Shown here: one piece after another, positions 9,741 through 61,353 of the stretch
Layout: every line of letters begins with the position of its first letter
How positions within the stretch are numbered: position 1 is the first letter of the stretch
From: Hufsiella arboris
GTDB taxonomy: Bacteria > Bacteroidota > Bacteroidia > Sphingobacteriales > Sphingobacteriaceae
NCBI RefSeq assembly: GCF_009834875.1
Contig: NZ_WVHT01000001.1
Location: 744,001 to 808,000 of the forward strand
Direction of reading: 5' to 3'
DNA: 64,000 nt
Made by a program: the position numbers and the translations under genes
Notes under the pieces: generated by a model
Told to the model about the DNA's origin: nothing
Databases searched by the model: none
What the model saw: the letters and a program-made list of their open reading frames with translations, nothing else

Positions 9741-9778
9741 AAAACAAAAAAAAGAAGCTTCTGATGGGCAGAAGCTTC
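9741..9778 (-). terminator. Intrinsic terminator of the tRNA-like RNA
   Basis: A perfect 10-bp stem GAAGCTTCTG / CAGAAGCTTC (9754-9763 and 9769-9778) with a 5-nt loop is followed on the minus strand by a long T-rich run (9741-9753). It lies 40 bp after the 3' end of the tRNA-like sequence and closes that transcription unit. Confidence 0.8.
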
Positions 9779-9817
9779 AAACTAACCAATTATAAACCTA
9801 AATTAAACGAAAGGTTG

Positions 9818-9929
9818 CTGTAGGGGTAGGAGTCGAACCTACAAGGAGTGGTTAGTTCGCCGAAACGAATTTCCCAGAATCTCCGCCACCGAGACAAGGA
9901 GGTGTGTCTGCCAATTTCACCACCCTACA
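9818..9929 (-). tRNA. Unusual class II tRNA-like RNA, about 112 nt
   Basis: On the minus strand a tRNA outer frame is intact: acceptor TGTAGGG/CCCTACA (7 bp perfect), D-arm GTG-AAATTGGCAGA-CAC (Leu-type, with the loop GG), T-arm GTAGG-TTCGACT-CCTAC (5 bp perfect, canonical loop), discriminator G, CCA not encoded. The middle is odd. The best anticodon arm is CCTCC-TTGTCTC-GGTGG with a T-T mismatch and a pyrimidine at position 37, formally giving anticodon GTC. The variable region is about 43 nt (usual class II arms are under 25) and folds as GGAG/CTCC, TGG/CCA and TTCG/CGAA. It has its own promoter and terminator. It may be a non-decoding or specialised tRNA; identity is unassigned. Confidence 0.6.
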
Positions 9930-9964
9930 AAGATCGATCAATCTTATTAGCTGATTGATTAATA

Positions 9965-9997
9965 CAAATGTAAGGCAATTGATTTATTTATTGCAAA
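9965..9997 (-). promoter_or_regulatory. Promoter of the tRNA-like RNA
   Basis: Read on the minus strand: TTTG (9997-9994), 21 bp, then TACATTTG (9972-9965). This matches the Bacteroidota consensus TTTG-N19/21-TAnnTTTG. The predicted transcript starts near 9958, about 30 nt before the mature 5' end. Confidence 0.7.
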
Positions 9998-10073: not shown

Positions 10074-10556
10074 ATGGAAAAACGGTCGCCAAATTTAGAA
10101 ATTGATAATCTCGACATGCAGATTTTATCATACTTGCTTGAGGATGCAACAATTGCTTACACCGAAATTGCTAAAAGATTAATCGTCTCAGGAGGTACAA
10201 TTCACGTCAGAATGAAGAAAATGCAGGATATGGGTATTATTAAAGGCTCAAACCTGATTGTCGACGCTCAAAAAATAGGATATGACGTGTGTGCCTTTTT
10301 AGGAATTTTTCTTGAAAAAGGATCGGCTTACAAAGACGCTGTTGAACAACTTAAAAAGGTAAAGGAAATTGTTGAGCTTCATTATTGCACTGGTGCATAC
10401 AGTATGTTTGCAAAGATCATTTGCCGTGATACAGCTCACCTGCGTCATGTGCTTAACGAGTCGATCCAGGCAGTAGAAGGCGTTCAACGTACCGAAACGT
10501 TTATATCACTCGAAGAAAGCATTAAGCGTCAAATCAGTTTAGATAATCTGGATTAG
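10074..10556 (+). CDS. Lrp/AsnC family transcriptional regulator
   Basis: 160 residues: an N-terminal winged helix-turn-helix (about 10-60, beginning LEIDNLDMQILSYLLEDA, recognition helix around VSGGTIHVRMKKM) followed by an effector-binding RAM/AsnC ligand-binding domain (about 75-150). Members bind amino acids and control amino-acid or translation-related genes as octamers. It is divergent from the tRNA-like RNA, 77 bp from that RNA's promoter; regulation of it or of its own gene is possible but unproven. Confidence 0.9.
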   Translation: MEKRSPNLEIDNLDMQILSYLLEDATIAYTEIAKRLIVSGGTIHVRMKKMQDMGIIKGSNLIVDAQKIGYDVCAFLGIFLEKGSAYKDAVEQLKKVKEIVELHYCTGAYSMFAKIICRDTAHLRHVLNESIQAVEGVQRTETFISLEESIKRQISLDNLD

Positions 10557-61116: not shown

Positions 61117-61353
61117 ATGAAAATCTGCCATTGCTTCTCAACTAAATTACTATTCAGGTTTTGGAAAGCAGTTGCAGGGTTCCAATTAACGTTAGCCGGG
61201 CTGTACGCTGTATCTTTTTTATTCCCGGACTTTAACCTATCGTTGATAAAAAAGGATGCCGCTTCCATCCCGTTTAAAACATTTTGGCTTTACTTGCTAT
61301 CATCATTTTCTATCACCGCAAAAACAATAGCGAGTTATACCTCAAAAAAATAA
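61117..61353 (+). CDS. Doubtful small hydrophobic ORF
   Basis: 78 residues with two moderately hydrophobic segments (about 10-35 and 54-70). No promoter element or ribosome-binding context is convincing and no family is recognised. It lies in a gene-poor region and may be chance. Other than this and the fragment before it, 60.7-61.46 kb shows nothing I can name. Confidence 0.22.
   Translation: MKICHCFSTKLLFRFWKAVAGFQLTLAGLYAVSFLFPDFNLSLIKKDAASIPFKTFWLYLLSSFSITAKTIASYTSKK

Follow-up and report, generated by a model that had tools for sequence, protein, structure and literature searches.

The closest described system to the RNA reported here is tRNA-dependent asparagine synthesis. In organisms such as Bdellovibrio and Deinococcus a non-discriminating AspRS places aspartate on tRNA-Asn, a U1-A72 tRNA, and GatCAB amidates it; this takes place where asparagine synthetase is absent, even if AsnRS and GlnRS are both present (PMC4206432). 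An earlier survey listed genera, Bacteroidetes among them, that have AsnRS, GlnRS and GatCAB and no asparagine synthetase, and a non-discriminating AspRS acting on tRNA-Asn was proposed for them (PMC4206432). The determinant for amidation by GatCAB is the first pair U1-A72, and the reaction is blocked by G1-C72 and U20a of tRNA-Asp (PMC9976931; PMC4206432). Aspartate identity, in turn, resides in G73, G34, U35, C36 and C38, and the pairs G1-C72 and G2-C71 are conserved in bacterial tRNA-Asp (PMC9976931).

The RNA gene described here lies in a window of 64,000 nucleotides (the whole stretch of Hufsiella arboris DNA that was analysed). It would likewise present aspartate on a U1-A72 tRNA for amidation; however, in contrast with the tRNA-Asn route, the putative carrier is a separate RNA with the aspartate anticodon GUC, so that AspRS need not be non-discriminating, and it is seemingly non-decoding and linked to an AsnC-type regulator. 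The non-proteinogenic tRNA-Gly of Staphylococcus aureus is also a tRNA reserved for a job outside translation (PMC9976931), but it has an ordinary size and feeds cell-wall synthesis, whereas the present RNA has a large variable arm and would feed amino-acid synthesis. Allo-tRNAs share with it a long variable arm, GUC among their anticodons and irregular features (PMC7609411); nevertheless, they have a 12-bp acceptor branch arranged as 8/4 or 9/3 and are serylated, while every copy of the RNA described here has a 7/5 branch (7-bp acceptor, 5-bp T stem). Membership of the allo-tRNAs, or of tmRNA, was rejected on this difference in architecture. Finally, in E. coli an asparagine regulator faces an asparagine-making gene across about 150 bp (strain K-12 has asnC and asnA in divergent orientation, 151 bp apart); in Bacteroidota the position of asnA is taken by the RNA gene. 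Among open-access papers, no description of such an RNA was found.

The tRNA-like RNA and its surroundings

The features of the locus, from the terminator to the divergent regulator, are the following:

9754..9778, minus strand: intrinsic terminator hairpin GAAGCTTCTGCCCATCAGAAGCTTC, followed by a T run
9782..9799, minus strand: 3' segment AGGTTTATAATTGGTTAG, conserved and still present in relatives that have lost the tRNA-like domain
9818..9929, minus strand: tRNA-like RNA, a 112-nt class II cloverleaf with 7/5 acceptor/T architecture, U1-A72, G2-C71, G73, anticodon GUC and C38
9843..9884, minus strand: variable arm, with a GGAG/CTCC helix, a TGG/CCA helix, a GAAA/TAA internal loop and a variable apical hairpin; its final two bases are positions 47-48
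9886..9902, minus strand: anticodon arm CCUCC-UUGUCUC-GGUGG, with a U29-U41 mismatch specific to Sphingobacteriaceae
9930..9964, minus strand: 5' leader, with an ATCAATC/GATTGAT inverted repeat in the window and the boxA-like GTTCTTTAA in many homologues
9965..9997, minus strand: Bacteroidetes-type promoter, TTTGCAA at 9991-9997 and TACATTTG at 9965-9972, kept in homologues
10074..10556, plus strand: Lrp/AsnC-family transcriptional regulator, AsnC-type, 160 aa, divergent from the tRNA-like gene

Pairing is perfect throughout the 7-bp acceptor, the 3-bp D and the 5-bp T helix of the element, the D loop carries GG and the T loop is TTCGACT. A sequence-only reading of the locus had reported the perfect pairing of these arms and the retention of the elbow bases, and both were confirmed, with the elbow under selection. 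The same reading had pointed to a T-T mismatch in the anticodon stem, a pyrimidine at position 37 and a GTC triplet; the window copy indeed has a single mismatch in this stem, T at position 37 and GTC in the loop. The reading was misled by this arm, since the T-T mismatch is peculiar to Sphingobacteriaceae and distant copies have five perfect covarying pairs; the 43-nt variable region that it measured is correct for this copy (positions 44, 47 and 48 added to an arm of 40 nt), while family members range from about 36 to 98 nt in this region. The D arm is Leu-like, and CCA is not encoded, which is also true of the majority of the tRNA genes in this genome, an assembly of 4.8 Mb in 56 contigs. 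Alongside a single copy of the element, the genome encodes a normal complement of tRNAs, an ordinary tRNA-Asp(GUC) among them, with ordinary tRNA-Leu genes elsewhere.

A tRNA caller and Infernal had been proposed as a check. ARAGORN made no call anywhere in the window, and Rfam returned no tRNA match for the element, even at E values up to 10. At gathering score, the Rfam 15 families matched neither the element nor 16 distant loci, and Rfam membership was discarded. The lone minimum-energy fold was no better than that of shuffled sequence (z -0.36); therefore, the fold of one sequence would by itself be no support for the element, whereas the comparative evidence does support it. Elsewhere in the window, two Flavo-1 RNAs (RF01705) score above the gathering threshold, at 61190-61279 and 207-290 of the minus strand.

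A conserved multi-copy family

The window element belongs to a conserved RNA family, often present in several copies per genome, which neither ARAGORN nor Rfam recognises. The set assembled here comprises 219 distinct copies and extends from Pedobacter and Mucilaginibacter to other families of Bacteroidia. A DNA search gave matches in 289 of the 399 genomes of the same GTDB family, and a pattern scan of named genomes matched at least 119 stretches, nearly all of them in Pedobacter, Mucilaginibacter and their relatives. This pattern fixed most of the anticodon arm (positions 33-36 and 38) and left 37 open, so the invariance of the anticodon arm in Sphingobacteriaceae is partly due to selection by the search; the loci of the GTDB-family search and the distant set are unaffected. 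A covariance model built from 32 copies located the element in 59 of the 395 class-level genomes searched, and a second model gave strong matches in a family (f114) that the kinship column places outside the class, within another class of the phylum. Weaker matches, at approximately 1e-9 to 1e-16, are ordinary tRNA-Leu: among the 13 strongest weak loci in apparently negative Sphingobacteriaceae, ARAGORN called tRNA-Leu(GAG) in 12, and the thirteenth (L236, in genome G012) is the element itself in truncated form. Many genomes have two or more copies, often in tandem, with five in L068. Tandem arrays of three to five copies occur in L068, L135 and L261; such arrays suggest a need for high dosage.

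The helices covary strongly, as the sequence-only reading had asked of homologues. In 32 homologues, 95.8% of the cells are standard pairs and 12 pairs have changed on both sides; the covariation score is 0.210, versus 0.086 in shuffles (reached in 0/500) and at most 0.066 in slid versions. Compensatory changes fall in the acceptor, the T stem and both helices of the variable arm, where GGAG/CTCC is replaced in concert by GAAG/CTTC and GGGG/CCCC. The anticodon stem of 56 distant copies pairs perfectly over 5 bp and covaries, with the versions CCCUC/GGGGG, CCCUC/GAGGG, CCCGC/GCGGG, CCGCC/GGCGG, CCAGC/GCUGG and CCACC/GGUGG; from this it follows that the U29-U41 mismatch and the anti-Shine-Dalgarno appearance of the window copy are derived in Sphingobacteriaceae. 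The motif GGGUUGACCAC was seen in the variable arm of 17/56 distant and 19/164 Sphingobacteriaceae copies, inside the long arms of distant and B-type copies (L268, L278, L279, L293 and second copies of Pedobacter, e.g., L029:1689).

Identity elements and decoding features

U1-A72, G2-C71, G73, U35 and C36 are present in all 219 distinct copies, C38 in 218 and G34 in 216. The major identity set of tRNA-Asp is therefore retained together with the first pair of a GatCAB substrate, whereas tRNA-Asp has two further traits that this RNA lacks, the pair G1-C72 and a variable loop of the short class I type. The antideterminants G1-C72 and U20a are both absent; the D loop reads GGCAGA or GGCAAA in 164/164 Sphingobacteriaceae copies, and distant copies are mostly the same. 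Taken together, the aspartate set and U1-A72 make this RNA resemble a tRNA-Asp rewritten at its first pair into a substrate of GatCAB. In E. coli, G10 is a minor aspartate identity element, and the G1-C72 pair of tRNA-Asp helps to position the 3' end in AspRS. The idea that all the E. coli aspartate elements are kept proved wrong, since G10 occurs in 167/219 copies and is not conserved.

The helices are intact in all copies and the elbow contacts are in place (U8-A14, G18G19, 15-48 and the TTCGA loop), with TG at positions 8-9 in every copy and T at position 48 in 218/219. On the other hand, the combination of U33 and a purine at position 37 that marks an elongator tRNA is not a trait of the family: U33 is found in 203/219 copies and a purine at 37 in just 37/219, with a pyrimidine in 83%. 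Neither A73 nor a leucine anticodon, as expected of tRNA-Leu, is present. The suggestion that the element might be a damaged tRNA-Leu does not apply: every copy keeps G73 and U1-A72, and all but three, which differ at G34, keep GUC, a combination that no tRNA-Leu of this genome has.

Promoter, leader and 3' segment

The promoter and terminator proposed from the sequence alone are both real; the former, of the Bacteroidetes type, occupies 9965-9997, and the terminator hairpin 9754-9778. Leaders upstream of copies in L031-L149 carry the boxA-like GUUCUUUAA, as in rRNA operons (89/216 distinct upstream regions). In the window, UGGUUAGUU of the 3' segment and AACUAACCA of the variable arm are complementary to each other. 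Distant families lack the 3' segment, and the RNA there runs straight into the terminator; the view that this segment is the main functional product was rejected, because it is absent outside Sphingobacteriaceae.

The AsnC-type neighbour

Clustering of the ORFs of 31 loci revealed a single recurrent neighbour, the Lrp/AsnC-family regulator. Among the matches listed, all 97 pattern-found Sphingobacteriaceae loci in which this regulator could be placed have it directly beside the RNA gene and divergent from it, the gap measuring about 124-216 bp; at 20 other pattern-found loci there is no regulator in the fetched stretch, many of these having the element near the stretch end. A divergent AsnC-type regulator is also present in 13/20 distant loci. 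This neighbour, the conservation of the family and the invariant U1-A72 had all been missed by the sequence-only reading. The closest solved relative of the regulator is E. coli AsnC (2cg4, E 2.4e-35), and its best NCBIfam model is AsnC, under the model cut-off (176 of 227 bits). The Bacteroidota regulator presumably senses asparagine.

Tyrosine-recombinase-like proteins of integrative elements are encoded close to the tRNA-like gene in L351 and L353, the copy in L351 being truncated. The tRNA-like gene may serve as an attachment site for integrative elements.

Co-occurrence with GatCAB and AsnB

In a sample of 80 genomes, where the RNA-negative status at the class level comes from a search with a stricter filter, GatB (PF02934) is present in 50/50 RNA-positive and 4/30 RNA-negative genomes (Fisher p 4e-17, relatedness ignored). 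E. coli-type AsnB (NF006949) shows the reverse pattern: it exceeds the cut-off in 0/50 RNA-positive and 21/30 RNA-negative genomes (Fisher p 1e-12, relatedness ignored). GatCAB present with asparagine synthetase absent is thus the pattern in a survey that covered GatB and E. coli-type AsnB. Both states occur within one genus (g21), where G041 and G085 have the RNA and GatB and lack AsnB, while G021 and G076 lack the RNA and GatB and have AsnB; in family f36, two RNA-negative genomes (G499 and G671) are also without GatB. The four RNA-negative genomes with GatB are G010, G023, G074 and G922. Of these, G010 and G023 have small, fragmented assemblies that lack the AsnC orthologue, and in G074 AsnC stands at the very start of its contig, where the absence of the RNA may be an assembly effect. 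AsnB-like paralogues of about 600 aa (at most 238 bits) occur in most RNA-positive genomes, with none at E 1e-20 in six of the 50, and they might make asparagine.

Some RNA-negative genomes retain traces of the locus. The promoter, a AGGUUUAUAAUUGGUUAG segment and the terminator still face AsnC without the tRNA-like domain in G016, G063, G037, G015 and G019, and partly in G021 and G076; G012 has the truncated copy mentioned above. These residual loci are consistent with the tRNA domain having been lost where AsnB is present. A short predicted transcript with AGGUUUAUAAUUGGUUAG and the terminator persists in this way opposite AsnC at L356, L359, L361, L366, L367, L370 and L371; it is a candidate small RNA, and its persistence suggests a second function. 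A decayed remnant of the RNA was seen at L358, in a 1.7-Mb genome (G005) without GatB and AsnB, which is possibly an asparagine auxotroph.

With respect to the synthetases, the genome of the window has AsnRS and one AspRS of the bacterial type. A second AspRS was considered and rejected, given that the class IIb core is found just in AspRS, LysRS and AsnRS. This AspRS has Leu31 and Lys83, as does the discriminating AspRS of E. coli; the two residues may mark discriminating enzymes. In the RNA-positive genome G459 (about 1.24 of 2.85 Mb sampled), AsnRS and GlnRS are both present, the latter 62% identical to that of E. coli over 221 residues; hence GatCAB is unneeded there for Gln-tRNA or Asn-tRNA.

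A putative carrier tRNA for asparagine synthesis

From the identity elements, the genomic linkage and the co-occurrence pattern, we consider that the RNA is probably a carrier tRNA that is dedicated to tRNA-dependent asparagine synthesis and does not decode; AspRS would charge it, GatCAB would amidate the aspartate that it carries, and asparagine would regulate it. The AsnC-type regulator, presumably asparagine-sensing, would control the divergent promoter that it faces. The transcript would be trimmed, receive CCA and fold as the L-shaped class II tRNA that covariation supports. The single AspRS would charge it with aspartate through G73, G34/U35/C36, C38 and G2-C71, and GatCAB, recognising U1-A72, would convert Asp-RNA to Asn-RNA. 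The altered loop (a non-purine at 37, sometimes a non-U at 33) and the large variable arm would bar the decoding of Asp codons, where asparagine would otherwise be inserted. Asparagine would then be released and used by AsnRS, AsnC would close the feedback loop, and the system would take the place of asparagine synthetase B. Of the three options left by the sequence-only reading (a non-decoding tRNA for aminoacyl transfer or regulation, a tRNA with an unusual decoding role, or a tRNA mimic), the first is favoured; amidation of the carried aspartate is new here. Against the carrier model stand the replacement of the G1-C72 of tRNA-Asp by U1-A72, the lack of conservation of G10, the three copies without G34, the AsnB-like paralogues of RNA-positive genomes and the four RNA-negative genomes with GatB. 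Moreover, AspRS would have to tolerate a variable arm of 36-98 nt, and a further enzyme would be needed to release asparagine.

Among the alternatives, it is unlikely that the RNA is charged with aspartate or binds AspRS and is purely regulatory, as a reporter of Asp/Asn status, a titrator of AspRS or an AsnC-controlled small RNA, with no asparagine made. The AsnC linkage, the 3' segment and terminator that outlast the tRNA domain in Sphingobacteriaceae, and, in the window copy, the complementarity between this segment and the variable arm would all agree with such a role; however, it leaves the invariant U1-A72 and the presence/absence pattern of GatCAB and AsnB unexplained, and distant families do without the 3' segment. 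Charging with serine or another amino acid, for donation to a lipid, peptide or cell-wall pathway, has a precedent in the non-proteinogenic tRNA-Gly of Staphylococcus (PMC9976931), and SerRS recognises a long variable arm with G73 (PMC7609411). Nevertheless, SerRS ignores the anticodon, yet U35 and C36 (219/219) and C38 (218/219) are kept, and no transferase gene recurs beside the RNA, the AsnC-type regulator being the sole recurrent neighbour; we regard this possibility as quite improbable.

It is very unlikely that the RNA is an ordinary or auxiliary tRNA that decodes Asp codons in spite of an odd variable arm. The GUC anticodon, the intact elbow and the perfect anticodon stem of distant copies would suit decoding, but the genome of the window already has a normal tRNA-Asp(GUC), purine 37 is rare and U33 is replaced in 16/219 copies, many related genomes lack the RNA, and U1-A72 would invite amidation and miscoding. 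In the window the anticodon arm strikingly contains CACCUCCUU, the 3' end of 16S rRNA, and these nine bases are present in most Sphingobacteriaceae copies, which brought up an anti-Shine-Dalgarno mimic that would pair with mRNA; this is largely refuted, and we give it hardly any credence, since distant copies have CCCUC, CCCGC, CCGCC or CCAGC instead, with pairing kept by compensatory change. It is just as implausible that the RNA is a tRNA-Leu in decay, a pseudogene of a tRNA or the remnant of a mobile element: the D arm is Leu-like and an integrase-like gene lies beside the RNA in two relatives, but the 219 copies have intact covarying helices, invariant identity bases and a conserved promoter and neighbour, and this conservation refutes a decayed tRNA-Leu. 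An origin from phages or plasmids was likewise rejected, as the phages, plasmids and viral contigs searched gave no match to the element.

Implications

The family is phylum-wide and missing from current tRNA and Rfam annotation, and the prediction of a carrier tRNA is directly testable. The broader proposal, which we hold to be likely, is that of a widespread tRNA that would exist solely for making an amino acid, having joined the AspRS and GatCAB recognition codes, abandoned decoding, come under an asparagine-sensing switch and replaced AsnB in many Bacteroidota. With a dedicated RNA that carries an Asp anticodon, a non-discriminating AspRS would be unnecessary. If true, the carrier tRNA would explain how asparagine is supplied without the classical synthetase B or such an AspRS, and why GatCAB is retained in many Bacteroidota that can have both AsnRS and GlnRS, as in G459. 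Amino-acid synthesis on a tRNA would then be separated from decoding, and the tRNA would act as a pure metabolic cofactor.
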